The notes under the pieces: model-generated
Told to the model about the DNA's origin: nothing
Databases searched by the model: none
The model's input: only the letters and a program-made list of their open reading frames with translations
Position numbers and translations under genes: made by a program
Assembly (NCBI GenBank): GCA_947628955.1
Contig: CANRBX010000028.1
Location: 1-35,206, forward strand
Source of the DNA: an uncultured Lachnospiraceae bacterium
Lineage (GTDB): Bacteria > Bacillota > Clostridia > Lachnospirales > Lachnospiraceae
Direction: 5' to 3'
DNA: 35,206 bases
In this document: positions 11,441-30,221 of the stretch, in pieces
Position numbering within the stretch: position 1 is the stretch's first letter
How the letters are laid out: each line of letters starts with the position of its first letter

Positions 11441-11451
11441 GGTGCGCAGAT

Positions 11452-13827
11452 ATGGATTTTTTTCAGATGAGTCTTTCGGGCGCGGTTCTGATACTGGCAG
11501 TGACTGTGGTGCGTGCCCTCTTTCTCAGTCATCTTCCCAAGATAACTTTCCATATCCTGTGGATGGCGGCACTGATCCGCCTGCTTGTGCCGTTTTCCCT
11601 CAGCTCGGCCACGAGCATATACACGTGGATTCCGGGACTGGGAGCGCTTGAGGAAACGCTGACGGCCAGTCTGTCAGAATTTCTGTCGGCGGAAACAGGA
11701 GCGGACGATGCGGCTGCGCGACAGAAAGCGGGGGCTGGGACGAATGGTTCAGCTGCGCGGCAGAAAGCGGGGGCTGGAACGAATGGTGCGGCTGCGCGGC
11801 AGACTGCGGGGATTGGGGCGGACGGAATATCAGGCGTGCAGGGAGCGGATACAACCGTATTTGTGGGAGCAGAAGATCCTATGCCGGCGAACGGCGGAGT
11901 GGAACCGGCGCTGGCAGGCAGCAGAGGGATTGGAGGCGTTTTGCTGCTGCTGCCGGTCTGTCTGGCCGTGTGGATTGCCGGGGCCGCTGCTCTGGCGTTT
12001 TGCTTCTTACTTGCCTATGTCCGGGCCTACAGAGAATTCGGGACTTCGCTCCCCGTGGAGAACAGTACGGTTCAGGAATGGCTTGCTGTGCATCCTCTGA
12101 GGCGGAAGCTTGAGGTGCGTTATTCTGACCGGATCTGTGCGCCGCTCGCCTACAGAGTGTTTCGCCCGGTGATTTTACTGCCGGGGAGGGCGGATAACAG
12201 AGAATCAGCCGGGACAGGAGGTTATGCGGATTCTCTGCTGTACATTCTGGAACACGAATATGTCCACATTCATCGGCTGGACGCGCTCACGAAGATTCTC
12301 ATGGCGGCGGCGCTGTGTCTGCACTGGTTCAACCCCTTTGTCTGGATGATGTACATTCTGTTCAACCGCGATATGGAGCTCTCCTGCGATGAGGCGGTTC
12401 TCTGCAGGCTCGGCGGGAATACAAAGTCTGCCTATGCAATGACTCTGATCAGGATGGAGGAGAGGAAAGACAGTTTTACCCCTCTTTTCAGCAATTTCAG
12501 CAGAAATGCGATGGAAGAAAGGATTGGTGCGATTATGAAACTGAAGAAACGCACGCCGGGAAGGCTTGTGACGGCCTGCCTGACGATCATGGTGATCTGC
12601 GGCCTGTTTGCGACGTCAGCGATGAAGCAGCCGGCGCAGGCATCTGTGGAGGCGCAGTCGAAGACGGCAGCTGCAGATGAGAAAGAGGCAGCTTACGCGG
12701 AGGATGCGATCAGCGCGGCGATGACAGCGCTCGGGGAACTGAATCATGCGGTTGCCAGGCTGGAAGAGAAGATCCGTGCGGCGGAGACAGTGCTCGGAGA
12801 ACCGGGCTATACGACTGCCGGGCAGGAAGAGGCAATCCGCGCGGCGGAGACAGCGCCCGGAGAACCGGGCAATACAGTTGCCGGGCAGGAGGAAACTGTC
12901 CGTGCGGCCGACGCCGATCTGGAATCTCTTTATAAGACCTTATCCTACCTGCAGCTTGAACAGGAAAAGATGGAACAGCTGATCTTCTTTGAACAGGAGT
13001 ATGGCAGCTATGGGATTCATTACGATCCGACGGGTGAGGGAACCCTGCGGATGGACGGAAGGACGGTCGGCCATTTCGCCGATGAGGACAACGGCGGGGA
13101 GCTCTGGACGGCGAATGGCTGCGAGCTGAACGTGACGGTGGAACGGGACGACGGGGAGATCGCGTATTTTGTCGTGATGACAGAAGGTGATGCGCAGAGC
13201 AGTTTTACGGTGAAGGCTGTGGAGGATGCCGGGGAGAGTGAAACGGATGTGCAGACGGAGGCTGTGACGGTTACAGAGACAGTCTATACGGATACGACGG
13301 GGGAAGCGCCGACGACAGCTGAAGCAGACGTGCCGGGAGGAGCGCTGGAGGCGGCTGCGGAGGATATCACGGAGGAGATGCCGATGGAAGGCGCAGAGAA
13401 TGCCGGGGAAGAGATGTCGGCGACAGCTGTGGAGGATGCGGTGAAAGAGATGCCGGCGGGAGCTTCGGAGAATACTAGGGAAGATGTTTCAAAGGATGAA
13501 ACCGCGGTAAGTGAAATGCTGCAGGCGGAGGCCGCCGTGGCAGCCGGCAGCTATGAACCGTCTGAGGAGGATCTGAAAAGGGAGCAGGAGTACAGGGAGG
13601 CCGGGATTACGGAGGATCCGCACACAGGTGAATGGCTTTATGACGGACGGGTGATCAGTATGATGGTGGATGAGGGCGGCGGTATCTACATGAATAATAT
13701 GGAGGATACGCCGAAGGAAGACCGGCTGTATGTGATCGTGGAGCGCGGTGAAGACGGCAGTGTGAAAGGGGCGAAGACAGTGACTCTGGAGGACGCCGTC
13801 CTGAGTTATGTGAAAAACAGATACTGA
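11452..13827 (+). CDS. M56 (BlaR1-type) membrane metalloprotease with a long repeat-containing sensor region
   Basis: BlaR1-type proteins sense an outside signal and cleave the partner repressor in the cytoplasm. Two N-terminal membrane helices are followed by a loop with a 13-residue repeat (AARQKAGAGTNG, three copies), another helix pair near residues 160-195, the zinc motif HEYVH at 268-272 with DMELSCDEAVL at 307-317, and a further helix near 370-395. The last 400 residues are extracytoplasmic and unlike the penicillin-binding sensor of BlaR1: a 21-residue repeat, a coiled-coil-like segment (SLYKTLSYLQLEQEKMEQ), two similar strand-rich domains (YDPTGEGTLRMDGRTVGHF and EDPHTGEWLYDGRVIS) and an acidic linker. 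Beta-lactam sensing is therefore unlikely; the ligand is unknown. ATG 11452 is chosen for the GAGG nine bases upstream; GTG 11437 overlaps the repressor's stop. Confidence 0.88.
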   Translation: MDFFQMSLSGAVLILAVTVVRALFLSHLPKITFHILWMAALIRLLVPFSLSSATSIYTWIPGLGALEETLTASLSEFLSAETGADDAAARQKAGAGTNGSAARQKAGAGTNGAAARQTAGIGADGISGVQGADTTVFVGAEDPMPANGGVEPALAGSRGIGGVLLLLPVCLAVWIAGAAALAFCFLLAYVRAYREFGTSLPVENSTVQEWLAVHPLRRKLEVRYSDRICAPLAYRVFRPVILLPGRADNRESAGTGGYADSLLYILEHEYVHIHRLDALTKILMAAALCLHWFNPFVWMMYILFNRDMELSCDEAVLCRLGGNTKSAYAMTLIRMEERKDSFTPLFSNFSRNAMEERIGAIMKLKKRTPGRLVTACLTIMVICGLFATSAMKQPAQASVEAQSKTAAADEKEAAYAEDAISAAMTALGELNHAVARLEEKIRAAETVLGEPGYTTAGQEEAIRAAETAPGEPGNTVAGQEETVRAADADLESLYKTLSYLQLEQEKMEQLIFFEQEYGSYGIHYDPTGEGTLRMDGRTVGHFADEDNGGELWTANGCELNVTVERDDGEIAYFVVMTEGDAQSSFTVKAVEDAGESETDVQTEAVTVTETVYTDTTGEAPTTAEADVPGGALEAAAEDITEEMPMEGAENAGEEMSATAVEDAVKEMPAGASENTREDVSKDETAVSEMLQAEAAVAAGSYEPSEEDLKREQEYREAGITEDPHTGEWLYDGRVISMMVDEGGGIYMNNMEDTPKEDRLYVIVERGEDGSVKGAKTVTLEDAVLSYVKNRY
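11710..11826 (+). repeat. 39-bp in-frame repeat, three copies, in the M56 protein
   Basis: Units 11710-11748, 11749-11787 and 11788-11826 encode AAARQKAGAGTNG, SAARQKAGAGTNG and AAARQTAGIGADG. The third is the most diverged. They lie in an extramembrane loop that varies freely in this family. Confidence 0.92.
12703..12910 (+). repeat. 63-bp in-frame repeat in the M56 sensor region
   Basis: Units 12766-12828 and 12829-12891 encode 21 residues each (EKIRAAETVLGEPGYTTAGQ and EAIRAAETAPGEPGNTVAGQ, each plus one Glu). A partial unit (ETVRAAD) follows, and the preceding 63 bp (12703-12765) encode a diverged version. The units would form helical segments leading into the coiled coil. Confidence 0.85.
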
Positions 13828-13861
13828 TACCGTGAACTGCATTCCCTGATAAACAGATACT
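13815..13861 (+). repeat. Partial echo of the M56 gene end
   Basis: AAACAGATACT occurs at 13815-13825, covering the last codons before the TGA stop, and again at 13851-13861. The match is only 11 bp, but the position mirrors the clearer stop-spanning duplications elsewhere in the window. Confidence 0.4.
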
Positions 13862-13881
13862 ATATTTTAAAATTGCTTTTG

Positions 13882-13929
13882 ACCGGAGCGCTGGAAAACA
13901 CAGATTGGTTTTACAGCGCTCTGGTTTTA
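13882..13929 (+). terminator. Rho-independent terminator of the blaI-like/M56 operon
   Basis: ACCGGAGCGCTG (13882-13893) pairs with CAGCGCTCTGGT (13914-13925) over 12 bp with one wobble, with GAAAAC/GGTTTT-type pairing continuing inward, followed by TTTAT. Confidence 0.85.
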
Positions 13930-13987
13930 TCTGATCAGCAAACAGCCCTGCGCTGCTGAATATTAACGTTCAGGAGCCCTGGGATTG

Positions 13988-14038
13988 TTCAGACCAGGCC
14001 GAAGCACCTGCCGCTGAGGCCGTAAGAAAGTGATTCAA
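13988..14038 (+). repeat. Displaced copy of the tail of the 20712-21314 hydrolase gene
   Basis: The sequence matches 21269-21318 at 45 of 50 positions by eye. It keeps the reading frame, encoding DQAEAPAAEAVRK and a TGA stop where the hydrolase ends DQAEALAAEAARK and TGA. Nothing before it resembles the rest of the hydrolase. It is either the remnant of a deleted paralogue or a transposed gene tail. Confidence 0.75.
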
Positions 14039-14077
14039 CAAGCCTTGGGACCGGGAAAATGCAGGGAGGCACACGTA

Positions 14078-14107
14078 TTGACAGGGGGAGGAAATATACG
14101 GTATCAT
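14078..14107 (+). promoter_or_regulatory. Promoter of the flavodoxin-ferredoxin gene
   Basis: TTGACA (14078-14083) and TATCAT (14102-14107) with an 18-bp spacer, 103 bp before the start codon. The gap 13828-14209 otherwise holds the terminator and the displaced gene tail. Confidence 0.6.
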
Positions 14108-14132
14108 ATGGAAAGATGACGATACCCACAGG

Positions 14133-14169
14133 GCACCCCGCAACTCAGATCCCTGCGGGATGGAGGTGC
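14133..14169 (+). promoter_or_regulatory. Hairpin in the leader of the flavodoxin-ferredoxin gene
   Basis: GCACC (14133-14137) pairs with GGTGC (14165-14169), and CCCGCA with TGCGGG (14154-14159) inside. No U-run follows, so it is not a terminator. No known riboswitch core is recognised. Confidence 0.35.
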
Positions 14170-14209
14170 TGCGGAAAATGCCGGAATCGGAAAGGAGATG
14201 TGAATTTCT

Positions 14210-15172
14210 GTGAAAGTACTGATTATCTATTACACACAGTCGGGGAACACGATGAAAATCGCAAAATGCATCGGCAGGGGCGCGCGCGACGCGGGCGCTG
14301 AGGTTAAAGTGGTCAGGCTGAAGGACGCGGACTATGAGATGCTGAAGGATTACGACCTGATCGGCCTCGGTTCGCCCACGTGGAAGGCGGATACGCCGAA
14401 TATGCACGCTTTTATCGACAAAATGCCGGATCAGGGAGGAAAGCACTGCTTTGCGTTCAACACGCATGGCACGCTGCCGCATCTGTATTTTCCGATCGTG
14501 ATCCCGAACCTGAAGTCCAGGGGCTTCCTGCCGATCGGATATAAGGGCTGGTACGGCGACGTCAATATGCCGGGCATGCCGAAGCCCTACTATACCATGG
14601 GACATCCGGACCAGCAGGATCTGGACGAGGCGTTTGCGTTCGGCAGGGAGATGGCCGAGAACAGCGCAAAGATCGCCGCAGGCGATACGGGACTTATCTA
14701 TCCCGATCCGGAGATAAACGATAAGGTGCTGGAACAGGCGCTGCTCTGCTCCAATATGCTGCTGAGCCCGACCAACCCGCAGGGCGCGTTCATCCGCGAT
14801 CCGGAGAAGTGCCATTACCCGAAGTGCCATGTCTGCATGGACAACTGCACGATGGGATATATTGATCTGTCCAGAGATCCTCAGGTGTTCGGGAACCGGG
14901 GCGACCGCTGCGACGACTGCCATGAATGCTCCTACTGCTTTATGATCTGTCCCTTCGGAGCCATCCACACGGAGGATCCGCAGCAGTTTGAGCGGGATCG
15001 GGGCGTCCGGCACAAAAACTTTGAGGTGATGCTCGACCGGGACGAGGCGGAGGGAACCTTCCGCAGACACATTCCGGCGGACGAGGTCGGGTTCGATACG
15101 CCGTACATATACTGGCATCCGGAACGGCCATACCTGAAGGTGCCGAGGGACAAGGGAGGACTGGACGACTAA
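14210..15172 (+). CDS. Flavodoxin-like protein with C-terminal 4Fe-4S ferredoxin domain (EFR1-like)
   Basis: Residues 1-160 form a flavodoxin-like domain; TQSGNT at 9-14 is the FMN phosphate loop and GSPTWKADTP the second loop. Residues 200-255 carry two cysteine groups, CHYPKCHVCMDNC and CDDCHECSYCFMICP, enough for two iron-sulfur clusters. The first is irregularly spaced compared with a standard ferredoxin and the second has an extra Cys. It should shuttle electrons between FMN and iron-sulfur clusters in the cytoplasm; partner enzymes are not encoded nearby. The GTG start at 14210 is supported by AAAGGAGAT at 14191-14199 and by the position of the flavodoxin strand. The stop sits at the beginning of a seven-copy repeat array. 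Confidence 0.85.
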   Translation: MKVLIIYYTQSGNTMKIAKCIGRGARDAGAEVKVVRLKDADYEMLKDYDLIGLGSPTWKADTPNMHAFIDKMPDQGGKHCFAFNTHGTLPHLYFPIVIPNLKSRGFLPIGYKGWYGDVNMPGMPKPYYTMGHPDQQDLDEAFAFGREMAENSAKIAAGDTGLIYPDPEINDKVLEQALLCSNMLLSPTNPQGAFIRDPEKCHYPKCHVCMDNCTMGYIDLSRDPQVFGNRGDRCDDCHECSYCFMICPFGAIHTEDPQQFERDRGVRHKNFEVMLDRDEAEGTFRRHIPADEVGFDTPYIYWHPERPYLKVPRDKGGLDD

Positions 15173-15390
15173 GCAGGCAGGAGGGCCGGGAGAACCGGAA
15201 AACTAAGCCGGGGCAGGCCGGGAAGGACCGGACGACTAAGTTGGCAGGAGGGCCGGGAGGACCGGACCACTAAGCCGGGCAGGTTGGGAAGAACCGAACC
15301 ACTAAGCCGGGCAGGCCGGGAAGAACCGGACGACTAAGCAGGCAGGAGGGCCGGACAACTAAACTGTGGCAGGATGGGAAAGACCATGAC
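15169..15390 (+). repeat. About 33-bp tandem array spanning the flavodoxin gene's stop codon
   Basis: Units begin at 15169, 15203, 15236, 15270, 15302, 15334 and 15359, with lengths 34, 33, 34, 32, 32, 25 and about 32. Each starts CTAAG (CTAAA in the last) and contains a purine-rich GCAGG and CCGGGA segment and a GACGACTAAG-like end, so each repeats the gene's GACGACTAAG terminus with its TAA. The last unit has decayed and contains the ATG codons at 15374 and 15386 that could start the next gene. Confidence 0.9.
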
Positions 15391-15415
15391 TGCTCTGGTG
15401 TTTGACAGGTGGACT

Positions 15416-16642
15416 ATGAAAAATATTGTATTTATTGAAAATTCAGATCTCCCGTTTTCGGAGGGAATCCGGATGGCAGAGCGCATCCGCCGGGAGATCG
15501 GGACGGATCTTCTTACGGTGATCGCGGAGGGGGATCTGCGCTCAGACGGGTGTCCCGCGAAGCGCTCCGCAGAGCAGAGGGCCGGCATGTGGCTGGACGC
15601 AGGGGCCGACCTGGTGCTGCAGCTCCCGGTGTTCAGCGTGCTGGGAGGATATGGGAAAAAGGACTTTGCCGTCGCGGCGCTGATCCAGAGGCTGCACAGT
15701 GCGGAACGGGTGATCCTGCCGTGCCGCCACCTGCCGGGACAGACGGCGGAGGAATGCGGGGAACTGCTCCGCAGGTGTGCGATGCTGATGTTCCGGGAGC
15801 GCCCGGACTACCGGAAAGAGCTGCAGGAAAATCTGCGCAGGAGAATGCCGTTTCTGAGAGCGCAGATGGAGGCGGTTGCCTTCTGCATCCCGGAGGCGGC
15901 AGGGCTCCTGCAGCTTCCGGAGAACAGGCAGAGTGTCTGTATGCTGGACGCCATGCTCCAGCTGTACTATATTGTGCGGGTGGATTTTATGGAGACTGAA
16001 AGCGGCGCGGAAGACACGAGCATTTCGGCGGCCGGGAACCGTGCTCCGGGTGGCCGTACCGGACTTTGGGAAGACCATACGCAGACCGGGAGTGCAGGAC
16101 TACGCGAAGGCTGTGCGCAGGGCGGCCGCGCCGGATCCCCGTCTGGCGGGGAGGAAAGGCGGCGCCTTTGCTTTGAGCGCCGTGCGGCGCGGGAGCTGAA
16201 AAAGATGCTTGAAAATCAGTCCCGGGATTTTCTGATGAACATTTCGGGGAGCACGGAGAGAGCGGTGAGCAGGATCCTGGATATTTCCGGGGAGATCTGG
16301 GAGGGAACCTGCCTCCAGGAGATCGTGGAGCGTGTGGAAGCAGCTTTTCCAAACAGGGATATGGCGCGGCTCTTTCTCCTGCGCATCGTTCTAAATATCC
16401 GGCACAGCGATATGCTGATCAGCGGACTGTACACATACGTGCCGTACTGCCGGGTTCTGGGAGAGCGCGGGCAGAGGCAGGACGAGATCGGGCGCATAGA
16501 GGAACTTTCCTGGGTGCCATTTATACGGGAGACCGGCTCGGGGCAGAGCAGAGAGGACAGCCCGGGGCAGGGCGGACAGGCGGACGAGACGCTCAGGCTC
16601 CTGCTCGCCATCGACCGGAGGGCCGGGCTGCTGTTCGGGTGA
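15416..16642 (+). CDS. TmcAL-like (tRNA-Met cytidine acetate ligase family) protein lacking the nucleotide-binding motif
   Basis: The alignment by eye is with TmcAL/YlbM, which uses acetate and ATP to make N4-acetylcytidine in tRNA. AEGDLRSDGCPAKRSAEQRA followed by WLDAGADLVLQLPVF matches the substrate loop (in TmcAL, a G-D-F-x-Q-R-G-E-P element followed by A-G-A-D-L-V-x-E-L-P), and LFLLRIVLNI followed by VPYCRVLG matches the C-terminal helix. The N-terminal nucleotide-binding H-x-G-H of TmcAL is replaced here by SDLPFSEGIR, so ATP chemistry is probably lost. A Gly-rich insertion near residues 205-240 is a degenerate 12-residue repeat. Start uncertain: 15416 matches the family's first strand but has a poor binding site; ATG 15386 has AGGATGGG, inside the repeat. 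It lies 38 bp before the first DUF262 gene and is probably co-transcribed with it. Confidence 0.65.
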   Translation: MKNIVFIENSDLPFSEGIRMAERIRREIGTDLLTVIAEGDLRSDGCPAKRSAEQRAGMWLDAGADLVLQLPVFSVLGGYGKKDFAVAALIQRLHSAERVILPCRHLPGQTAEECGELLRRCAMLMFRERPDYRKELQENLRRRMPFLRAQMEAVAFCIPEAAGLLQLPENRQSVCMLDAMLQLYYIVRVDFMETESGAEDTSISAAGNRAPGGRTGLWEDHTQTGSAGLREGCAQGGRAGSPSGGEERRRLCFERRAARELKKMLENQSRDFLMNISGSTERAVSRILDISGEIWEGTCLQEIVERVEAAFPNRDMARLFLLRIVLNIRHSDMLISGLYTYVPYCRVLGERGQRQDEIGRIEELSWVPFIRETGSGQSREDSPGQGGQADETLRLLLAIDRRAGLLFG

Positions 16643-16680
16643 TACAAATGCATTGGCCAGGCAGAAGAGGAGGCGGTCTC

Positions 16681-18366
16681 TTGTCGGAGATCATTTTGGA
16701 TACGAAGCTGGTTGGTTCCATTGAGGGAACATTTTTTGTGCCTTCTTATCAGAGGGGATACAGATGGGGCAGGGACGAGGTGATCAGGCTGCTGGACGAC
16801 GTCTGTTCCAACGGGACGGACAGCTATTGCCTGCAGCCGGTTGCGGTGCGGAAAAAGGGGGACAGCTATGAGCTGATCGACGGCCAGCAGAGACTGACGA
16901 CGCTGTATCTGATCTACCGCTTTATGCACAATGAGAGCGGGGGCTTTTTTGATGAGCCGAAGTTTTCCCTGACCTATGAGACGAGAGAGAAGTCAGAAGA
17001 GTTCCTGTCTGAGATGGATCTGTCGAAGAAGGAGGACAACATCGACTTCTGGTTCATCTGCAGCGCGTATGAGACCATTCAGGAATGGTTTGCGCAGAAG
17101 GAGAAAAGATCCGTTCTGACAAACATCAACAAGTATTTTGATGAAAATGTGAGGGTCATCTGGTACGAGGTGGGGGAAGCGGAGGACGCGGCTGCCCTGT
17201 TCGAGAGGCTGAATATCGGGAAGATCCCGCTGACCAGCGCGGAGCTCGTGAAGGCGATGTTTCTGAGCAGGGACAGCGGCGGGGGCATGAGCCGCGAGAG
17301 GCAGGAGGAAATCTCCCTGCAGTGGGACAGTATCGAGAGAGAGCTGCACAGTGAGCCGCTGTGGGCCTTCCTGACGAACGACGGGGCGGAGGACTGTCAG
17401 ACGCGGATCGACCTTGTGCTGAATATCATCGCTCAGACGCCGGCCGGAACCCGGGAGAAATACCATACTTTTTTTGTATTTGACGAGCTGAGAAAAACGA
17501 AGCCGCTTTCAGACATCTGGAATCAGGTACAGCACACCTTCCTCATTTTGAAGGACTGGTATGAGAACCATGAGCTGTATCACAAGATCGGATACCTGAT
17601 CGCGTCCCGCGCGCTCTCCCTGCAGGAGATCTACAGCATGTCGCTGGGCAGAAAGAAGAGCGATTTCATAAAAGAGCTGGACGCGCAGATAAAGGACAGC
17701 ATAGAGATCGGCTGCAATTATGCGGAGCTGAGCTACGAGCGGCGGGGCGATTATGACAGGATATCCAGGCTGCTTCTGCTGTTCAATGTGGAATCGGTCC
17801 GGCAGCTGGAGGAAAAGACTCACCGGTTTCCCTTTGACCGCTACAAGGAGAGCGGGGCATGGAGCCTGGAGCACATCCATGCGCAGCAGTCGGAGGGAAT
17901 GCGAAAGCAGGAGGAGTGGAAGGAATGGCTGAGGCTGCATATCCGATCGCTGGCCGCTCTCTCAGGGCAGGAGGCGCTGATCGGGAGGATGAAGGAGTGC
18001 CTGGACAGGCCGAGGCTGGAAAGACGGGAATTCGAGACGCTCTGCAGGGAGGCGTCCGAGGCGCTGTCTGCGCCGGGGAGCGCAGGATATCTGCACTCGA
18101 TCTCCAATCTGGCGCTTCTGAATACGAGCGATAACGCCGCGCTTAATAATTCTGCCTTTGATGTGAAAAGAAATAAGATCATTGAGATGGACATGGCCGG
18201 AAGGTATATCCCGTTCTGCACGAAAAAGGTATTCCTGAAATATTACACGCCGTCTGAGGAAAACCAGCTTCACTTCTGGGGACAGGCGGACCGCGCCGCG
18301 TATGTGCGCGCGATCAATGCCGTATTGAAGAATTATCTGACGGAGAGCATATCTGCAGGGTGGTGA
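16681..18366 (+). CDS. DUF262-DUF1524 (GmrSD-like) protein
   Basis: An N-terminal DUF262 domain carries PSYQRGYRWG near residue 25 and DGQQRLTTL from Asp67, the nucleotide-dependent ParB-like motif. The C-terminal part has SLEHIHAQQ (His398, His400) and, from residue 476, NLALLNTSDNAALNNSAF and then D-V-K-R-N-K. This is the DUF1524 His-Me/HNH-type nuclease signature (H-I-x-x-Q, then N-L-x-L-L, N and K-R). Proteins of this plan include GmrSD type IV restriction enzymes and SspE. The TTG start at 16681 is preferred: GAGGAGG lies at 16667-16673, seven bases away, and DUF262 begins directly after it; a GTG at 16639 overlapping the previous stop has no good site. It ends 6 bp before a second DUF262 gene. 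The target (modified, foreign or host DNA) is unknown. Confidence 0.88.
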   Translation: MSEIILDTKLVGSIEGTFFVPSYQRGYRWGRDEVIRLLDDVCSNGTDSYCLQPVAVRKKGDSYELIDGQQRLTTLYLIYRFMHNESGGFFDEPKFSLTYETREKSEEFLSEMDLSKKEDNIDFWFICSAYETIQEWFAQKEKRSVLTNINKYFDENVRVIWYEVGEAEDAAALFERLNIGKIPLTSAELVKAMFLSRDSGGGMSRERQEEISLQWDSIERELHSEPLWAFLTNDGAEDCQTRIDLVLNIIAQTPAGTREKYHTFFVFDELRKTKPLSDIWNQVQHTFLILKDWYENHELYHKIGYLIASRALSLQEIYSMSLGRKKSDFIKELDAQIKDSIEIGCNYAELSYERRGDYDRISRLLLLFNVESVRQLEEKTHRFPFDRYKESGAWSLEHIHAQQSEGMRKQEEWKEWLRLHIRSLAALSGQEALIGRMKECLDRPRLERREFETLCREASEALSAPGSAGYLHSISNLALLNTSDNAALNNSAFDVKRNKIIEMDMAGRYIPFCTKKVFLKYYTPSEENQLHFWGQADRAAYVRAINAVLKNYLTESISAGW

Positions 18367-18372
18367 ACAGCT

Positions 18373-20577
18373 ATGGAGACAAGGGCACATACGTTTATGG
18401 ATATTTTTGACACGGATTTTTCCGTGGGGCGGGAGCGGGTGCGGCTGAAGAAAATCGTCATCCCGATCATCCAGCGGGACTACGCCCAGGGGAGGACGGA
18501 TGAGGACTCAGCCAGGATCCGCGCGCGGTTTCTGAGGGCGCTGCATGAGGCGGTGTCGGGTTCTCCGGCCACGCTGGATTTTGTATACGGAGATATCGAT
18601 GAAGATGGAACCATGACACCTCTGGACGGGCAGCAGCGCCTGACCACGCTCTTTTTGCTGCACTGGTATGCGGCGAAAAAAGGAGGGGCGGGGGAAGACG
18701 AATACCGTTTCCTGTACAATTTCAGCTACGAGACGAGGTACAGCGCGCGCGATTTCTGCTCGCTTCTGATCGGCTTCGACCCGTCTTTTGAGGGCAGCAT
18801 CTCGGATGAGATCACGGATCAGTTCTGGTTTCCGCTGGACTGGCAGAAGGATCCGACGATCCGCGCGATGCTTGTCATGCTGGATGACATACAGGATGTA
18901 TTTGCAGATATTGACGGCCTCTGGGAGAAGCTGAAAGGGCGGGCCATCCAGTTTTACTTCCTTCCGATCCGGGACATGGGGCTGACGGATGAGCTGTATA
19001 TAAAAATGAACTCGCGGGGAAAGCCGCTCACGGCCTTCGAGCATTTCAAGGCGGAGCTGGAGCACGAGATCCGGCAGGCGGACGAGGAGCTCTGCCGGAG
19101 GATCATGAGAAAGATCGATATTGACTGGACGGACATGCTCTGGAAGTACCGCGGGAGCAACAACATCACGGACGACGAGTTCCTGAGATATCTGCGCTTT
19201 GTCTGCGATATTTTATGCTACCGCAGCGGCGGCACCATGCAGGGCAGGAGAATGAGCGAGTTTGATCTGCTGAATGAGTTTTTCTCACCGAGATGCAGAG
19301 ATGCGAAGGAGAACCTTCTTTCGCTCGAATCGTTTTTTGACGTCTGGTGTTTTGAAAATCTGGGGGCAGAGCCGGACGAGTTCCTGGGGCGCTTTATCTC
19401 GACAGAGCATGAGGCAGGGAAGATCCTCGTTGACAGCCGGCCGGACCTGTTCGGCGACTGCCTGGAGAATTATACGGACGGGTACGGCATGAGGTCCAGG
19501 ATGTTTCCGCTGGGACGGGTTGTACTTCTGTACGCGGCGGTGGTTTACCTGATGAACCGGCAGACGGTCACCGAGGCGGAATTTGCCCGAAGGCTGCGCG
19601 TGGTGCATAATCTGGCGGAAAACTCGGAGGACGAGCTGAGTGACAGCACCCAGAGGACCTCCGGAAACCGGATGCCGGCGATCCTGAGGCAGACGGACTG
19701 CATCATCCGAACCGGAAGGATTGACAGGACGATCGAGGGCAGCTTCAATCAGTATCAGCTGAACGAGGAAGAGGAAAAGCTGGAATGGACAGAGCAGAAC
19801 CCGGAATACGCGGAGACTCTGTTTGTGCTTGAGGATCATGAGCTGCTGTACGGGCGGATCGCGGTCGTGGGCCTGGACGAGCCGGAGCTGTTCGGGCGGT
19901 TTGCAGAGCTGTTTGCGTGCGATAAGGACGCGGTGGACTGCGCGCTGACGGCGCTGGGCGATTACACCCAGCAGGACGGGGCCGCGTGGAGATACCAGAC
20001 CGGCTCATCCAGGATCCTGAGCTCCTGGATGAATCTTTTTCATAACGTGTCGGCCGCGGGCTTCGGGCGCACCAGGGAGATCCTGCACAGGCTTCTGAAG
20101 CGCAGGGAGACGTTTTCGGACGGGATGCTGCGCGGGATTGCGGACAGGTACCTCGCTGCCTGCGAGGAAAAGGGCCGGTACGGCTGGAGATACTATTATC
20201 TCAGATATGGGGATGTCTTCCGGCCGGGAAGGTACGGAAAGATATACTGGGAAGACAAGGCCGGGGCCCCATACGAGATGCTGATGCTGTACGCTGAGCT
20301 GTACCTTTCGCAGAATGCGTACCAGCCATTTCTGAAGCTTCTTGATGAGGATGCATTGTCGAGGGACGACTGGGGACAGTGGCTGGTCAGGGGCGATTAC
20401 TGGATCGAATGCAGAAACGACGGTTTTTACCTTTATGCTGGCGCTGAGGCTGAAGAGCCTGCGTACTGTCTGGAGATTGCGCAGGATGAGAAGGGCGTCG
20501 ACACGGAGGACCGGGTAAAAAAGGCGGGGCGCTGGTACAGAAAACTGTGCAGAAGGCTGGAAACAGAAAAAGCTTAA
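18373..20577 (+). CDS. Second DUF262 protein, without a DUF1524 nuclease motif
   Basis: A 734-residue protein with the DUF262 signatures IPIIQRDYAQG (near residue 33) and DGQQRLTTLF from Asp85, plus MNSRGKPLTAFEHFKAELEH near residue 212, typical of long DUF262 members. No H-I-x-P/Q plus N-L-x-L-L pair can be found in the remaining 500 residues, so the usual nuclease half is missing. The C-terminal end holds GVDTEDRVKK and many aromatic residues and is not assigned. It follows the DUF262-DUF1524 gene by 6 bp, so the two are very likely one operon and perhaps one complex in which only the first subunit cuts. The last codons and stop are part of a 16-bp repeat array. Confidence 0.85.
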   Translation: METRAHTFMDIFDTDFSVGRERVRLKKIVIPIIQRDYAQGRTDEDSARIRARFLRALHEAVSGSPATLDFVYGDIDEDGTMTPLDGQQRLTTLFLLHWYAAKKGGAGEDEYRFLYNFSYETRYSARDFCSLLIGFDPSFEGSISDEITDQFWFPLDWQKDPTIRAMLVMLDDIQDVFADIDGLWEKLKGRAIQFYFLPIRDMGLTDELYIKMNSRGKPLTAFEHFKAELEHEIRQADEELCRRIMRKIDIDWTDMLWKYRGSNNITDDEFLRYLRFVCDILCYRSGGTMQGRRMSEFDLLNEFFSPRCRDAKENLLSLESFFDVWCFENLGAEPDEFLGRFISTEHEAGKILVDSRPDLFGDCLENYTDGYGMRSRMFPLGRVVLLYAAVVYLMNRQTVTEAEFARRLRVVHNLAENSEDELSDSTQRTSGNRMPAILRQTDCIIRTGRIDRTIEGSFNQYQLNEEEEKLEWTEQNPEYAETLFVLEDHELLYGRIAVVGLDEPELFGRFAELFACDKDAVDCALTALGDYTQQDGAAWRYQTGSSRILSSWMNLFHNVSAAGFGRTREILHRLLKRRETFSDGMLRGIADRYLAACEEKGRYGWRYYYLRYGDVFRPGRYGKIYWEDKAGAPYEMLMLYAELYLSQNAYQPFLKLLDEDALSRDDWGQWLVRGDYWIECRNDGFYLYAGAEAEEPAYCLEIAQDEKGVDTEDRVKKAGRWYRKLCRRLETEKA

Positions 20578-20702
20578 ATCAGAAAGAGCTCAGATCAGAA
20601 AGAGCTCAGATCAGAAAGAGCTTAGATCAGAAAGGGCTTAGATCAGAAAAAGTTCAGATCAGAACAGGCTTAAAATCAGAAAAAGTTTAAATCAGGAAGA
20701 GG
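20564..20702 (+). repeat. 16-bp tandem array spanning the second DUF262 gene's stop codon
   Basis: Eight copies of a CAGAAAGAGCTCAGAT-like unit start at 20564 and recur every 16 bp (one unit is 17 bp). The first covers the last codons and TAA stop (20575-20577). A ninth, shortened copy (20693-20702) reads CAGGAAGAGG and acts as the ribosome binding site for the hydrolase gene at 20712. The units are directly adjacent, so this is not a CRISPR array. Confidence 0.93.
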
Positions 20703-20711
20703 TGTCTGGCG

Positions 20712-21314
20712 ATGGAGAAAACGAAGCTGGCAGTTTTGTTTCCGGGGATCGGCTATACATGCGACAAGCCGCTGCTGTACTACGGCGGAAAGCTGGCGGC
20801 GGCAGGAGGCTATGAGCTGAAGCAGGTTCCCTACGGCGGCTTTCCGCCCGGAGTGAAGGGGGATCCGCAGAAGATGGAGGCGTGTTTTTACAGCGCGCTC
20901 GCGCAGGCGGAGGAGATCCTGGGCGGTGTGGATCTGGAGGGGAGAGAGCTTCTGTTCCTCTCGAAAAGCATCGGGACCGCCGTCGCGGCGGCCTTTGCGA
21001 AAAAGCATGACCTGAAGGTGAGAAGCATCTCCTTCACGCCGGTGGAGCAGACGTTCCTGTTTGCGTGCGGGGACGGCATCATGTTTCACGGGACCGCGGA
21101 CCCGTGGGCGAAGAATACGGACCGCATCCGGGAGTGCTGCGAAAAGATCGGCCAGCCTTTGTACCTTGTGGAGGGCGCGAACCATTCTCTGGAGACCGGC
21201 GATGTGGAGACGGATATTCAGAATCTTCAGAAGGTCATGAGACAGGTAAAAGAGTACATCCGTTACGCTTCAGATCAGGCCGAAGCGCTTGCTGCTGAGG
21301 CCGCAAGAAAGTGA
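20712..21314 (+). CDS. Small alpha/beta-hydrolase family protein
   Basis: A 200-residue protein beginning LAVLFPGIGYTCDKPLLYY. The nucleophile elbow LSKSIG places Ser86 as a G-x-S-x-G variant (first Gly replaced by Ser); Asp130 in HGTADPWA and His158 in GANHSLE complete a catalytic triad in the correct order. The fold is complete though short and has no signal peptide, so it should be cytoplasmic. The substrate is unknown. The ATG has AGGAAGAGG upstream, formed by the last copy of the repeat array. It may be the last gene of the DUF262 operon, 134 bp downstream of it. Its final 45 or so bases are duplicated at 13988-14038. Confidence 0.8.
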   Translation: MEKTKLAVLFPGIGYTCDKPLLYYGGKLAAAGGYELKQVPYGGFPPGVKGDPQKMEACFYSALAQAEEILGGVDLEGRELLFLSKSIGTAVAAAFAKKHDLKVRSISFTPVEQTFLFACGDGIMFHGTADPWAKNTDRIRECCEKIGQPLYLVEGANHSLETGDVETDIQNLQKVMRQVKEYIRYASDQAEALAAEAARK

Positions 21315-21339
21315 TTCAGGGTACATCCGTGCATCTGAG

Positions 21340-21363: not shown

Positions 21364-21365
21364 TC

Positions 21366-21394: not shown

Positions 21395-21413
21395 GTGAAG
21401 ATGCTAGTCATCT

Positions 21414-22489: not shown

Positions 22490-22504
22490 GAGGCCCCGGC
22501 TGCC

Positions 22505-23698: not shown

Positions 23699-23732
23699 CT
23701 GCCCAAAGCTGAAGGAAGGATGGGAGATACAT

Positions 23733-24743: not shown

Positions 24744-24749
24744 ACAACT

Positions 24750-25715
24750 ATGAGTGAAAAAGCCATGCTGGAGGTTCAGGACCTCAAAATGCATTTCAGA
24801 CTGAATAATTCCAAAAACCTGATGGTTCACGCCGTGGACGGCATCAGCTTCCGGATTCCCAGGGGAAAGACTCTGGGCCTGGTCGGAGAGTCCGGCTGCG
24901 GCAAGAGCACCTGCGCCAGGACCGCGATCCGCATCTATGACCCCACGGCGGGGAAGATCTTTCTGGACGGACAGGATATCACCAGGCTGTCACAGAAGGA
25001 GCTGAAGCCTCTGCGGAAAAAGATGCAGATGATCTTCCAGGATCCATACGCGTCGCTGAACGCGAGGATGGTGGTCAGGGATATCATCGCGGAGCCGCTT
25101 CTCGCGCACGGGATCATCCGCAGCAAGCGGGAGGCCGGAGAGTATGTCTATCCGATGCTGGAGCGCGTGGGGCTCACGCGGGAGCATGCGGACCGCTATG
25201 CGCATGAGTTCTCAGGCGGCCAGCGGCAGCGCATCGGCATTGCGAGGGCGCTGATCCTTCAGCCGGATCTGGTGATCTGCGACGAGCCGATCTCGGCGCT
25301 CGACGTCTCCATTCAGGCGCAGGTCGTCAATCTCCTGAAGGATTACCAGGAGGAAAAGGGAATCTCATATCTCTTCATCGCGCACGACCTGTCCATGGTC
25401 CGCTACGTCTCTGACGAGGTGGGCGTCATGTATCTGGGACAGCTGGCCGAGCTGTGCGAGGCCGAAGAGATCTACCGCAAGCCGCTGCATCCCTACACGA
25501 AGGGCCTTCTGGGCAGCATCCCGATCCCGAATCCGAAGCTGGCGCGCCAGAAGGAGGTCTCCGGCATGAAGGGGGACATCCCCAGCCCGGTGAATCCGCC
25601 GGAGGGCTGCCGGTTCTGCGCGCGCTGCCCGTATGCAAAGTCAGTCTGCAGTGAGACGACCCCGCACCTGAAGGAGGTCTCGCCCGGGCATCAGGTGGCC
25701 TGCCATCTGTACTGA
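24750..25715 (+). CDS. oppF: Peptide ABC transporter ATP-binding protein OppF-type
   Basis: Walker A GESGCGKS, signature FSGGQRQRI, Walker [13 protein letters not shown] and H-loop IAHDLSMV are complete. The C-terminal Cys-rich extension ([15 protein letters not shown]) is present. It starts 6 bp after oppD with AAAGGA upstream and forms the ATPase heterodimer with OppD. Confidence 0.95.
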
Positions 25716-25755
25716 CGGGACGGCCGGGGCGGGCCCGTGAAAGGGGCTGCTGCCT

Positions 25756-25784
25756 GCGGCATCTGTGAAGGCCGCTGTGTTTTT
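25756..25784 (+). terminator. Partial terminator between oppF and oppA
   Basis: GCGGC (25756-25760) pairs with GCCGC (25771-25775), followed by TGTGTTTTT. A short stem, so probably leaky: some transcripts would continue into oppA. Confidence 0.4.
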
Positions 25785-25831
25785 CTGATGTCAGCTGCTT
25801 CAGGGCAGTTTACATAAAACCCATTTAACAT

Positions 25832-25848
25832 GCTCTCATGCTGAGAGC
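25832..25848 (+). promoter_or_regulatory. Tight hairpin just before the oppA ribosome binding site
   Basis: GCTCTCA (25832-25838), loop TGC, TGAGAGC (25842-25848), then a purine-rich stretch with GAGAGGAAA before ATG 25873. A hairpin this close to the 5-prime end of the binding-protein cistron could protect a processed oppA message. Inference. Confidence 0.45.
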
Positions 25849-25872
25849 GGAAAAGAAAGAGAGGAAACGATT

Positions 25873-27531
25873 ATGAAGATGAAACGACTTGCAGCACTGC
25901 TTCTTGGCGGATGCATGCTGGCCTCTGCCCTTCCGGTGTACGCGCAGGAGATGCTCCCGGATGTGGAAGAGGTTACCGGTGAGGATGCGCCTCTGGCCGA
26001 CACACAGGAGATCACCTATGTGCTCAGCAATGAGCCGGACGGCATTGACCCAGGCATTACGAACAACTCCTTTGCTTCTGTATTCCTGGTGAACTGCTTT
26101 GAGGGCCTGGCTACCTATGACAACAGCGGAAACGTTGTTCCGGGCGTGGCGGAGTCCTGGGACATCAGCGAGGACGGCACGGTTTACACGTTCCATCTGA
26201 GGGATGGCCTGAAGTGGAGCGACGGCTCGCCTCTGACAGCGAATGATTTCGTCTATTCCTACAAGAGAGTGCTTGACCCGGCGACGGGCGCCCAGTATGT
26301 CAACATGATCACCGATTATGTAGTGGGCGCTGCTGAGCTGTATGCAGGAGAGGGCAGCGAGGAGGATCTCGGCATCAGGGCTCTGGACGACCAGACGCTG
26401 GAGATCACACTGATCCAGCCGGCTTCCTGGTTCATCGATATGCTGACCATGTGGGTATGGGATCCGGTTCAGGAGGCCACGATCACAGCGAACGGCGACC
26501 AGTGGACGAACAGCGCCGACACCTATGTCTGCAACGGCCCGTTCATGATCTCTGATATGAGCATGGGCGAGTACGTGGAGCTTTCCAAAAACGAGAATTA
26601 CTGGGATGCTGAGAGCGTGACGCTTGAGAAGATCACGCTGCGCTACGTGCTGGATACCGCTACGGCGCTCACTGCCTATGAGTCCGGCGAGGTGGACGGC
26701 ATCAACACCATCCCGGCATCCGACGTTGCCCGCCTGAAAGCGGAGGGCGCGGGCGTGCAGACCGCTTCGAACTTCGGCACCACCTATTTCAACATTAACT
26801 GCGCAAAGGCTCCGTACGACAATCCGCTTGTCCGCAAGGCCCTGAGCCTGGCGATCGACCGTGAGGCGATCATCAACAACGTTCTGCAGGTGGAGGCTTC
26901 CCCGGCTTACAACCTGATCGGACCGGGCTACGTCGTGGACGGCGTGGACTTCTCTGAGGGCGACAGCACCTGGGAGCTTGGCCCGAACGCTGACCCGGAG
27001 GCTGCACAGGCGGCTCTGGCTGAGGCAGGATATCCGGACGGCGAGGGCTTCCCGACCCTGCAGCTTTCCTACTATTCTTCTGATACGGTGAAGAAGATGA
27101 CGGAGGCGCTGGCCGAGATGCTGGAGACGAACCTGGGCATCGACGTGGAGATCACATCCGCTGACTGGGCGGTGTTCTATGAGGATGTGCAGAACGGCAA
27201 CTATGATGTGGCTGCCATGGGCTGGAGCGCGGACTACGTGCATCCGATGTCCTTCCTGCCGCTTCTGAAGACCGACGATGTGAGCAACAATGTATTCTAC
27301 AGCAACCCGGACTACGACGCTCTGGTAGAGCAGGTGATGGCTGAGAGCGATCCGGCGAAGGGCTGGGATCTGATGAAGGAAGCAGAGGCCCTCGCGATGG
27401 CGGATTATCCGATGCTGAACGTGTACTATAAGGCTGCGAACTATGCAATGAAGGATTATGTGACCGGTTACTTCATGAACGCATCCTCGAGCCTGTTCTT
27501 CAAGGGCGCGAAGGTAATCGCGGCAGAGTAA
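25873..27531 (+). CDS. oppA: Peptide ABC transporter substrate-binding protein OppA-type
   Basis: A 552-residue family 5 solute-binding protein. The N-terminal signal MKMKRLAALLLGGCMLASALP contains LGGC (Cys14), a possible lipobox, with an alternative cleavage after VYA. The family pattern follows: EPDGIDPGI, GLATYDNSGNVVPGVAESWD, FHLRDGLKWSDGSPLTANDF, and FGTTYFNINCAKAPYDNPLV. It binds peptides outside the cell and hands them to OppBC. It is placed last, after oppF, although many opp operons begin with it. The last codons and stop are triplicated downstream. Confidence 0.93.
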   Translation: MKMKRLAALLLGGCMLASALPVYAQEMLPDVEEVTGEDAPLADTQEITYVLSNEPDGIDPGITNNSFASVFLVNCFEGLATYDNSGNVVPGVAESWDISEDGTVYTFHLRDGLKWSDGSPLTANDFVYSYKRVLDPATGAQYVNMITDYVVGAAELYAGEGSEEDLGIRALDDQTLEITLIQPASWFIDMLTMWVWDPVQEATITANGDQWTNSADTYVCNGPFMISDMSMGEYVELSKNENYWDAESVTLEKITLRYVLDTATALTAYESGEVDGINTIPASDVARLKAEGAGVQTASNFGTTYFNINCAKAPYDNPLVRKALSLAIDREAIINNVLQVEASPAYNLIGPGYVVDGVDFSEGDSTWELGPNADPEAAQAALAEAGYPDGEGFPTLQLSYYSSDTVKKMTEALAEMLETNLGIDVEITSADWAVFYEDVQNGNYDVAAMGWSADYVHPMSFLPLLKTDDVSNNVFYSNPDYDALVEQVMAESDPAKGWDLMKEAEALAMADYPMLNVYYKAANYAMKDYVTGYFMNASSSLFFKGAKVIAAE

Positions 27532-27565
27532 AGACCGGCAGAGTAAAGATCTGCGGAGTAAAGAT
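27521..27565 (+). repeat. 15-bp tandem repeat spanning the oppA stop codon
   Basis: CGGCAGAGTAAAGAC (27521-27535), CGGCAGAGTAAAGAT (27536-27550) and CTGCGGAGTAAAGAT (27551-27565). Each contains the GAGTAA that ends the gene; the true TAA is at 27529-27531. Confidence 0.93.
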
Positions 27566-27582
27566 CCATAAGGCAAACACAA

Positions 27583-27626
27583 ACCCCCGCGCCGGGCAGC
27601 GGCTGCTTTGGCGCGGGGGTATTTTT
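27583..27626. terminator. Bidirectional rho-independent terminator
   Basis: ACCCCCGCGCC (27583-27593) pairs perfectly with GGCGCGGGGGT (27610-27620), followed by ATTTTT on the plus strand. On the minus strand the hairpin is followed by a T-rich TTTGTGTTTG, so it can also end transcripts from the amino acid transporter operon. Confidence 0.92.
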
Positions 27627-27716
27627 GGTGATATTGTTCCGGTGATACTGTTCGATCCGGGATATGTACAGACGGCGCGGTGCCCTGCCATGTGGAATTT
27701 CTGAAACAGCCAGGGG

Positions 27717-27768
27717 CAGGCACCCCTGCCCGCAGCGGCCTGCAGGCACCCCTGCCCGCAGCGGCCGG
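27717..27768. repeat. 26-bp perfect tandem duplication
   Basis: 27717-27742 and 27743-27768 share CAGGCACCCCTGCCCGCAGC and more, differing only at the end of the unit. It lies 20 bp beyond the stop of the minus-strand ATPase gene and does not include it. Part of the first copy also forms a CAGGGG/CCCCTG hairpin with the preceding bases. Confidence 0.9.
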
Positions 27769-27787
27769 CCGGCGCCCGATAAAACGA

Positions 27788-28525
27788 CTATTTGTCCGTG
27801 AGGTGATGCAGGAACTGCCTGGTGCGCTCTTCCTTCGGGCTGCTGAATATTTCAAGGGCGGTGCCCTGCTCGACGACGAGGCCGCCTTCCATGAACACGA
27901 CGCGGGAGGAGACGTCCATCGCGAATTTCATCTCGTGCGTCACGATCACCATCGTGGTGCCGTCCTCCGCCAGCTTTTTCATGACGTCGAGGACCTCGCC
28001 GGTCAGCTCCGGATCCAGAGCCGAGGTCGGCTCATCGAAGAGGATCACCTGTGGATTCTGCGCGATGGCGCGTGCGATCGCCACACGCTGCTGCTGGCCC
28101 CCGGACAGCTGGTCGGGATAATAGTGTGCACGGTTTGACATCCCCACCCGGTCAAGCATCTCAAGCGCGGTTTTTTCCGCGCTTTTTTTGTCAATCCTGC
28201 GGGCGGTGACCAGCCCCTCCATGACGTTTCCGAGCGCTGTCATGTTGCGGAACAGGTTGAAGCTCTGGAAGACAAAGGCCATGTCGAAGCGGAGCCTGCG
28301 GATCTCCCTGGAGGAGATATGCGCCATGTCATGGTGAAAATCCCCGAAGGTCATCTGCCCCCGGTCCACCTTTTCCAGAAAGCTGATACAGCGCAGCAGG
28401 GTGGTCTTTCCCGAGCCGGACGGGCCGATCACGGAGACGACCTCGCCCTTGTCAATCCGGAAATCAATTCCCTTCAGCACCTCGTTTGTGCCGAAGCTCT
28501 TGTGAAGATCTGTTACTTCAAGCAT
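27788..28525 (-). CDS. Polar amino acid ABC transporter ATP-binding protein (GlnQ/HisP-type)
   Basis: A 245-residue ATPase with Walker [11 protein letters not shown], signature [13 protein letters not shown], Walker [15 protein letters not shown] and H-loop VTHEM. It powers import of a polar amino acid. The start at 28525 is chosen for GGAGG five to six bases upstream; the longer frame to 28540 would put its start inside that binding site. It ends the minus-strand operon of membrane protein, binding protein, permease and ATPase. The substrate cannot be read from the ATPase. Confidence 0.95.
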
Positions 28526-28536
28526 GGGATCCTCCT

Positions 28537-29238
28537 TCACATCTGTGCTGAGTCTGTCTCGACCAGATATTTTTCATCTGTCTTCCACACCAGCTTTTTC
28601 TCCAGCCAGGACTGGATCCATGTCAGGATCGTCGAGAAGGCGAGATAGATCACCGCGGCCTCGCAGTAAAGCGCAAACGGCTCATACGTCCGGGATGCGA
28701 TCTGCTGTGCGGTGGTAAAGAGCTCCACCACGGTGATGCTGGACGCGAGAGAGGTGTCCTTCAGCAGGCTGATCAGGTTGTTAAACAGGGATGGAAAAGC
28801 GATCGGAAACGCCTGGGGAAGAACGACCCGCAGCATGGTCTGCGGGTAATTCAGTCCGATCATCTGCGCGGCCTCCGACTGCCCCTGCGGGACTGCCAGG
28901 ATGGCGGAGCGGAACACCTCCGCATTGTATGCTCCCAGGTTCATGCCAAACGCGATCACGGCGGCAGGGAACGCGTCAAGCACGATCCCGAGCCGCGGGA
29001 GGCCGAAAAAGATGATAAACAGCTGGACGAGCAGCGGTGTTCCGCGGAATACCCAGATGTAGATCTGTGAAAACTGCTTCAGGATCCGGATATCTGCCAC
29101 CTGAACGATGGCAAGCAGCAGCCCGAGCACAAAGCTGAATGCGAAGGATGCCAGCGTCAGCGGTATCGTGATCCGGATGCCGGGGATCAGGATCTGGGTG
29201 AAGGATGAGACAAGAATCTCGATAATTCGTTCGTTCAT
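28537..29238 (-). CDS. Polar amino acid ABC transporter permease (HisM/GlnP-type)
   Basis: A 233-residue protein with about five membrane helices. The docking loop reads [20 protein letters not shown] with the EAA-x3-G spacing of this family, followed by [29 protein letters not shown] near residue 66 is another hallmark. A single permease gene implies a homodimer. Six bp separate it from the binding-protein gene before it, and 11 bp from the ATPase gene after it. Confidence 0.94.
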
Positions 29239-29244
29239 ATCAGA

Positions 29245-30075
29245 TTAATCCAAATCCTGCTGAGAGATATCGCTTCCGAAGTATTTCTCGGAAAGCTCTG
29301 TCAGGGTTCCGTCCTCCGAGAGCTCGGCGATCGCCGTGTCGATCGCTTCCCTCAGTGTCCCGGTGGCCTCTTCTTTGCGAAGCGGGATGGCGACCTCTGA
29401 GGCGTCCTCGGTGAGCGCTACGATCTTGATCGGCGCGTCGGGATGCTCCGCAAGATAATCATAGAAGGAGACCTCGGCATTCAGCGTGGCGTCCACGCGG
29501 CCGGAGAGCACCATGTCGATCGTCTCGGCCAGCGTATCCACGTTCTGGACGTCCGCGCCGTATTCTGCCGCCATGTCCGCATAGGTGGAGCCGAGGGAGT
29601 TGCTGGTCTTTTTTCCGTCGAGATCCTCGAAGCTGAGAATGTCCTCATTTGACTCGGCGACCACCAGGGCGGTGCGGATATAGGCGTACGGCGTTGAGAA
29701 GTCGTATTTCTCCGCCCGCTCGTCCGTGATCTCCACTCCGTTGATCACGGCGTCGTAACGGCCGATGTCCATTCCGGCGAACAGGCCGTCCCACTCGCCC
29801 TCGACAAATTCTGCCTCGACGCCCAGCTTTTCCGCGATTGCCTTTCCTACCTCGGTGTCGTAGCCGACGAGTTCTCCGTCCTCGTCGTGATACGTCCAGG
29901 GCGCCCACTGGCCCTCCATGGCAAACGTGATGCTGCCCTTTTCCTGGATCTGGGAGAGAAGATCGCCGCCTGCTTCCTCATCTGCGGCCGCGGCCGATGC
30001 GGCTCCCAGGAACAGGGCTCCGGACAGGCCGAGGCATGCAAGGGTTTTTGCTGTCTGAGTGGATAATTTTTTCAT
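29245..30075 (-). CDS. Polar amino acid ABC transporter substrate-binding protein (family 3)
   Basis: The signal peptide spans about residues 1-30 (TLACLGLSGALFLGAASA), with no lipobox Cys at a sensible place. The mature part has the family 3 pattern: ITFAMEGQWAPWTYHDEDGE, LVGYDTEVGKAIAEKLGVEA, DAVINGVEITDERAEKYDFS, and a C-terminal TLTELSEKYFGSDISQ. It binds a polar amino acid outside the cell. AAGGAGG precedes ATG 30075. Anchoring is unclear; without a lipid it may be loosely held. Confidence 0.93.
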   Translation of the reverse strand: MKKLSTQTAKTLACLGLSGALFLGAASAAAADEEAGGDLLSQIQEKGSITFAMEGQWAPWTYHDEDGELVGYDTEVGKAIAEKLGVEAEFVEGEWDGLFAGMDIGRYDAVINGVEITDERAEKYDFSTPYAYIRTALVVAESNEDILSFEDLDGKKTSNSLGSTYADMAAEYGADVQNVDTLAETIDMVLSGRVDATLNAEVSFYDYLAEHPDAPIKIVALTEDASEVAIPLRKEEATGTLREAIDTAIAELSEDGTLTELSEKYFGSDISQQDLD

Positions 30076-30107
30076 AGATAAATTCCTCCTTGAACATATT
30101 ATCGCAT

Positions 30108-30221
30108 CTGAGATCAGTCCGAACCGGCCGGGTACGGGACTGCCTTCAGTATGTTACTGCATTTCTGAAATCAGTCCAGGCCGGCCAGGTATGGGACTGC
30201 CTTCAGTACGTTTTCTGTATT
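30108..30221 (-). repeat. 57-bp tandem duplication containing a gene end and its stop codon
   Basis: Units 30165-30221 and 30108-30164. On the minus strand the first unit encodes the last residues NVLKAVPYLAGLD and TGA of the 30171-30890 gene; the second, beyond the stop, still reads NILKAVPYPAGSD and TGA. Most differences are single-base changes. Confidence 0.93.

Follow-up and report, generated by a model that had tools for sequence, protein, structure and literature searches.

Bacterial minisatellites, or variable-number tandem repeat (VNTR) loci, consist of head-to-tail units of tens of bases that are specific to their locus and are gained or lost between relatives (PMC2884548, in the part available, together with general knowledge). 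The tandem repeats of Borgs, which are archaeal extrachromosomal elements, lie both between and inside genes, have unit lengths divisible by three within open reading frames, are accompanied by flanking partial repeats and are rarely conserved in location among close relatives; the portion of PMC9879509 consulted describes their units as perfect and A-enriched. In Beggiatoaceae, according to the available part of PMC4679880, a single heptamer, TAACTGA, forms abundant intergenic direct repeats genome-wide, mostly upstream of start codons and in some cases overlapping stops. Here we analysed a stretch of 35,206 nucleotides (the window; contig CANRBX010000028.1 of assembly GCA_947628955.1) from an uncultured Lachnospiraceae bacterium, in which the tails and stop codons of four genes, namely flavodoxin-ferredoxin, the second DUF262 gene, oppA and the gene at 30171, are echoed in tandem downstream. 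We consider it highly probable that these echoed tails are the gene-end fringe of minisatellites found in spacers genome-wide, which most likely arise anywhere and likely persist where they are harmless.

The window is the entire contig 28 of 136 in a binned draft genome (3.5 Mb, 93.8% complete, 6.2% contamination; G000, the own genome), from which 40 other 20-kb stretches (800 kb) were sampled and searched with Tandem Repeats Finder (TRF) for arrays of score ≥50 and period ≥9. When the 161 arrays of this sample were re-placed randomly 500 times, a stop codon was found inside 29 of them versus 15.6 ± 3.5 expected, with no shuffle reaching that number, and a start codon inside 8 versus 15.9; 70 arrays were inside genes (121.5 expected) and 56 between genes (13.6 expected). 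The same treatment of the first 20 stretches of G011, a congeneric genome with an oppA 91% identical to the own gene, gave 19 stops versus 8.5 and 4 starts versus 8.2 for 97 arrays, 41 of which were inside genes (77.6 expected) and 34 between genes (6.2 expected). Four other genomes of the genus (20 stretches) had no stop in any of 29 arrays, where 2.0 were expected in sum. Relative to random positions, stops are thus genuinely over-represented in arrays, and a second genome rich in arrays repeats this.

Because arrays live in spacers, and a spacer is bounded on each side by a stop or a start, each array was slid within its own spacer, and this was done for every spacer-touching array in 2000 shuffles. 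Under this same-spacer null, the 85 arrays of the own sample crossed 28 stops versus 24.5 ± 3.7 and 6 starts versus 21.8 ± 3.8, while 86 arrays from 40 stretches of G011 crossed 24 stops versus 27.5 ± 3.7 and 5 starts versus 19.5 ± 3.6. Start-crossings as low as those observed occurred in 0 of 2000 shuffles in either genome. At TRF cut-offs of 40, 50, 80 and 120 alike, the shortage at starts persisted and stops deviated from expectation by no more than about 1.4 spreads. Thus, the excess at stops over random genome positions follows from arrays lying in spacers and being excluded from starts. The initial annotation had asked whether arrays overlap stops more often than starts or gene bodies, and had suggested that duplication is unusually frequent at gene 3′ ends; the excess at stops held against random positions and vanished under placement within spacers, and the suggestion is not supported, as stop-crossing stands at its expected level in both genomes.

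The pooled coverage profile describes the same situation base by base. Array coverage inside the gene end was 0.007 at 60–120 bases in, rose through 0.015 and 0.029 to 0.052 in the last 15 bases, and continued beyond the stop with 0.073 (first 15 bases), 0.099, 0.138, 0.189 (60–120) and 0.156 (120–250). On the start side, coverage was 0.011–0.015 in the gene, and upstream 0.012 (0–15), 0.028 (15–30), 0.059 (30–60), 0.098 (60–120) and 0.148 beyond. Stops therefore form a shoulder of array coverage without a peak, and starts form a hole, with arrays strongly depleted at starts and throughout the 30 bp or so upstream of them.

Gene 3′ ends acting as duplication hot spots, for example through stalling of replication or of RNA polymerase at terminators, would account for stops being crossed about twice as often as uniform placement predicts in the two genomes, and in spacers between same-direction genes the own sample indeed had 23 stop-crossings versus 17.8 expected (G011, 19 versus 16.9). 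We read the stop excess in same-direction spacers as the result of removing placements over starts. With start-crossing placements forbidden, stop-crossings numbered 27 versus 29.9 ± 3.5 in the own sample, 22 versus 33.1 ± 3.5 in G011 (2 of 2000 shuffles as low) and 52 versus 66.5 ± 5.1 in the pool including the window, so that neither this null nor the same-spacer null left an excess; coverage also still climbed past the stop to 60–120 bp. Moreover, the link to transcription termination suggested in the initial annotation found no backing, since terminator-like sites were no commoner on stop sides with arrays than on those without in any of four length classes (0/6 versus 3/211 below 60 bp, 0/27 versus 24/298 at 60–150 bp, 5/73 versus 22/185 at 150–300 bp, and 8/67 versus 18/80 at ≥300 bp). 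A stop-codon hot spot is thus very unlikely, being rejected by both the same-spacer null and the coverage profile.

Unit lengths and ortholog comparisons bear on why stops are tolerated. The unit length was a multiple of three in 73 of 77 in-gene arrays of the own sample and window (95/98 in G011), as opposed to 14/32 stop-crossing arrays (10/28) and 22/59 between-gene arrays (19/62). Among 160 reciprocal best ortholog pairs of ≥60% identity that link genes of the own sample or window to genes on stretches from relatives, a stop-crossing array was present on 10 own and 11 relative genes, that is, on at least one side in 19 pairs and on both sides in two (periods 49/34 and 31/26); the remaining 17 of the 19 loci carried it on one side only, in one case with the own gene cut by the stretch end. 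In the L070/L160 pair, the one with periods 49 and 34, the same conserved tail is duplicated in both species. For the 152 pairs with both 3′ ends, protein ends agreed in 12 of the 18 that have an array over the stop and in 95 of the 134 that lack one (Fisher p 0.78), and remodelling of protein ends by arrays was rejected for lack of any excess. The G011 oppA, its tail read from stretch L129, has a protein end identical to that of the own gene and no array, meaning that the oppA array was gained in the own genome or lost in G011; the oppA of G055 (66% identical; L103) has an array across its stop whose 38-bp unit is unrelated. The proposal that duplications over stops are nearly neutral is supported by the freedom of their unit lengths from the frame rule and by protein ends that agree equally with or without arrays.

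Conservation of the copies for a function, as spare stop codons or as repeated 3′ RNA structure, would explain why CTAA is kept in all seven flavodoxin-ferredoxin copies and GAGTAAAGA in all three oppA copies. However, the adjacent copy of the stop triplet was identical in 27 of 47 stop-crossing cases versus 26.1 expected from other triplets, so copied stops are not specially preserved; units of the DUF262 array do not all retain the stop, and orthologs seldom share an array. Nor did 110 arrays fold better than 110 other spacer pieces when each was compared with shuffles (mean z −0.83 versus −1.23, p 0.29). Spare stops accordingly found no support in stop-triplet conservation, nor did RNA structure or terminators as the cause of arrays in the folding and terminator comparisons, and retention of the copies for a function is very unlikely.

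Arrays of the own sample and window matched nothing elsewhere in the sample in 161 of 174 cases, whereas 13 matched something; most arrays therefore probably arise in place, and the earlier suggestion of a repeated process, as opposed to one mobile repeat, is upheld. The unit is specific to its locus, as in minisatellites, and is not the same at many loci as in miniature inverted-repeat transposable elements (MITEs), repetitive extragenic palindromes (REP) or the TAACTGA type. Median identity within arrays was 81–88% by class. The repair genes mutS1 and recJ were considered, other repair genes lying outside this search: both gave matches above the family cut-off in G000 and G011, and each in 41 of 47 genomes of the genus, so that the arrays cannot be put down to loss of either gene. 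In many genomes of the genus the RecJ profile match is interrupted near positions 146–150, where extra residues occur; in G011 the interruption is near 322.

We propose that short tandem duplications, formed through slippage or through recombination at short matches, most likely arise anywhere and likely survive where they cause no harm. A duplication over a stop would keep the original tail and stop as its upstream copy, and for that reason would be nearly neutral; over a start, a duplication would upset both leader and ribosome-binding site and hence would be purged. The array-rich genomes would then either generate duplications at a higher rate or clear them from spacers less effectively. 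Several points weigh against this account. Taken by themselves, the first 20 own stretches had 12 stop-containing arrays where uniform placement predicts 9.3, which is non-significant; the own sample retains its excess in same-direction spacers; and the G011 deficit under the start-forbidden null indicates that crossing a stop is probably not entirely cost-free. Stops and starts were defined by a home-made hexamer-plus-start gene caller, and the stretches were drawn non-randomly, from longer contigs. In favour of the account, recent duplications, defined as arrays of period ≥25 whose exact run spans one period or more but fewer than two, had an extra match of ≥3 bp in 9 of 10 cases versus 12.5% of 200 simulated blunt duplications; this signature, however, comes from ten arrays, seven of them in genes, and worn three-copy arrays could mimic it. 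The signature would fit slippage or recombination between short matches; junction microhomology has been described at spontaneous rearrangements in Salmonella (PMC3411829, in the part consulted).

The features of the window are listed in Table 1. At score ≥50, TRF found 13 arrays in the window, whereas 50 dinucleotide shuffles averaged 0.08 and never exceeded 1, so that head-to-tail units of about 10–100 bp occur well above chance. A stop codon lies inside three of the 13, and the other ten are within genes or spacers, which shows that gene ends are not the sole array sites. No Rfam family matched the window at gathering scores.

Table 1. Tandem repeats at gene ends in the window and a neighbouring spacer array.
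Feature	Position	Strand	Relation to genes
~33-bp array, seven copies	15154..15366	+	Flavodoxin-ferredoxin gene (14210-15172) has its tail and stop as copy 1
16-bp array (units 16-17 bp), eight units plus a partial	20564..20702	+	Unit 1 has the stop TAA of the second DUF262 gene
15-bp array, three units	27521..27566	+	Unit 1 is the end of oppA (25873-27531)
57-bp duplication, two copies	30108..30221	-	Gene 30171-30908 has its tail and TGA as the upstream copy
11-bp exact repeat, 36 bp apart (13815, 13851)	13815..13861	+	End of the M56 gene (11437-13827); chance-level alone
26-bp spacer array	27715..27777		Lies between oppA and a convergently oriented gene whose end is at 27788; no stop inside

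Four of the five gene-end repeats named in the initial annotation proved real by coordinates, TRF and/or shuffles. In the flavodoxin-ferredoxin array, which TRF called at 15154-15354 and which ends before the start of the next gene (15374), CTAA recurs at 15169, 15203, 15236, 15270, 15302, 15334 and 15359, with spacings of 34, 33, 34, 32, 32 and 25 and hence a short seventh copy; the actual stop sits in copy 1. The second DUF262 gene (GmrSD_N) spans 18373-20577. Its array stops just before the start codon at 20712, and the final partial unit CAGGAAGAGG (20693-20712) occupies the position expected of the ribosome-binding site for that ATG. The oppA units have GAGTAAAGA at 27526, 27541 and 27556, the first being the gene end, and the 26-bp array beside them is an ordinary spacer array, every unit of which contains the palindromic GGCAGGCACCCCTGCC. 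The two 57-bp copies match at 43 of 57 bases (0.754) and each can be read as a protein tail followed by TGA; the pair is absent from TRF output even at score 30, and an adjacent 57-bp pair of equal quality appeared in 0 of 50 window shuffles. The fifth case, a faint version at the M56 gene end, is by itself at chance level, as shuffled windows average 0.74 close repeats like its 11-bp pair.

No close match to the flavodoxin-ferredoxin gene turned up among the 40 relatives searched (best, 29% identity over a part), and its relatives of 74–84% identity are in other metagenome-assembled genomes (MAGs) labelled Lachnospiraceae or Blautia, a distribution that would be explained by horizontal transfer or a binning error. 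An array was found within 300 bp after the stop in 3 of 16 relatives of this gene from other MAGs (L002, L004 and L016), none of them spanning the whole stop.

Array abundance differs strongly within the genus. Arrays covered 9.7% of spacer bases in the own genome and 10.4% in G011. The sister group of G000 by rpoB, with few spacers for each genome, had 21.3% (G061), 3.1% (G015), 13.2% (G059), 11.4% (G004) and 23.6% (G060), or 12.3% over 57 spacers combined. Other genomes of the genus had 0.9% (G012), 5.7% (G023), 2.2% (G007), 3.2% (G044) and 0 (G016, G019, G041 and G054), with 14.1% in G055 coming from only 11 spacers; four order-level genomes had 1.5%, 1.4%, 0 and 0. G011 does not group with G000 by rpoB, and abundance has therefore arisen more than once, was lost elsewhere, or is wider than the thin sample shows. 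One own contig, C4 (L037, L067), has a G+C of 0.44 compared with 0.55 for the sample and one array per 20 kb, and is possibly foreign to the bin (6.2% contamination). We offer only tentatively, as a possibility short of an even chance, that the group runs a raised process of short tandem duplication that rewrites spacers species by species, with gene tails as one seed stock (the L070/L160 duplications being independent and the oppA array own-only) and the spacers as a record of tolerated sites.

The same spacers also harbour a short dispersed element, with two copies in the window (13986-14037 and 21276-21314). Its 39-base core had 46 matches in the own genome at ≤3 mismatches and none when the pattern was read backwards; a core match was present in 12 of 47 genomes of the genus including the own one. 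A script that kept end-repeat pairs near GTTACTGTTCA with 8-bp flanks differing by at most one base returned nine hits, comprising eight copies of 97, 132 or 156 bp and one unrelated hit of 2330 bp (L067). The 8-bp flanks of the eight copies are exact repeats in five and have one mismatch in three, and shorter copies too are often situated between direct repeats of 7–10 bp (39 copies listed). With inverted ends near GTTACTGTTCA and 8-bp flanking direct repeats, the complete forms of 97–156 bp are built like a MITE. Modest support was obtained for a hairpin in the core, on variants selected by core match, from two pairs with changes on both sides (4 cells; values as high arose in 83 and 3 of 500 shuffles). 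The copy at 21276 (region 21254-21330), flanked by the 10-bp direct repeats GTACATCCGT, gives gene 20712-21314 its C-terminal codons and stop. Near rpoB, 140-bp tandem units that include the element were seen in G059 (L222, 10739-11049) and G061 (L219, 17263-17599), and these arrays are tandem duplications of an inserted element. That the arrays stem from a single mobile or dispersed repeat or from faulty assembly is scarcely credible: the element shares the arrays' spacers and forms part of one own array (L069, 69-bp units) and of one each in L219 and L222, and the genome is a binned draft, yet G011 has no element match at ≤3 mismatches and as many arrays, nearly all array units are unique, the identity within arrays is not something assemblers invent, and the pattern is seen in other genomes of the genus.

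On the account favoured here, in which duplications arise anywhere and are retained where harmless, the striking stop-codon pattern follows from one simple rule. The harmless zone extends into the last codons of a gene and ends some 30 bp before a start, and arrays in these genomes are frequent enough for it to be mapped statistically. Should a raised duplication rate be the source of this abundance, the group would be a natural system for studying the control of short tandem duplication in bacteria. The analysis also carries a caution, in that a control of randomly chosen genome positions can give the impression of a stop-codon hot spot where none exists. No survey of arrays over bacterial stop codons was among the literature titles listed, most subscription journals being outside coverage, and a literature search for Lachnospiraceae minisatellites yielded nothing related.

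The comparison with known systems places these arrays near the VNTR loci of PMC2884548, which they resemble in head-to-tail units of tens of bases, in locus specificity and in gain or loss between relatives; relative to the part of that source consulted, the differences are a coverage of about 10% of spacer bases in two sampled genomes and a measured spill over stops and avoidance of starts. With the Borg repeats, as far as PMC9879509 was available, they share arrays between and inside genes, rare conservation of loci among close relatives and flanking partial repeats, and units are divisible by three in genes but not elsewhere. Unlike the perfect Borg units, the copies here differ from one another; in base composition, compared as G+C, spacer arrays are richer (0.584) than other spacer DNA (0.478), while Borg units are A-enriched; and the arrays reside on a bacterial chromosome. 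The TAACTGA repeats, in the portion of PMC4679880 consulted, are likewise abundant between genes and overlap some stops, but nearly every array here has its own unit and starts are avoided. The arrays thus match the description of bacterial minisatellites, occurring here at high density, and add a measured example to an established category.

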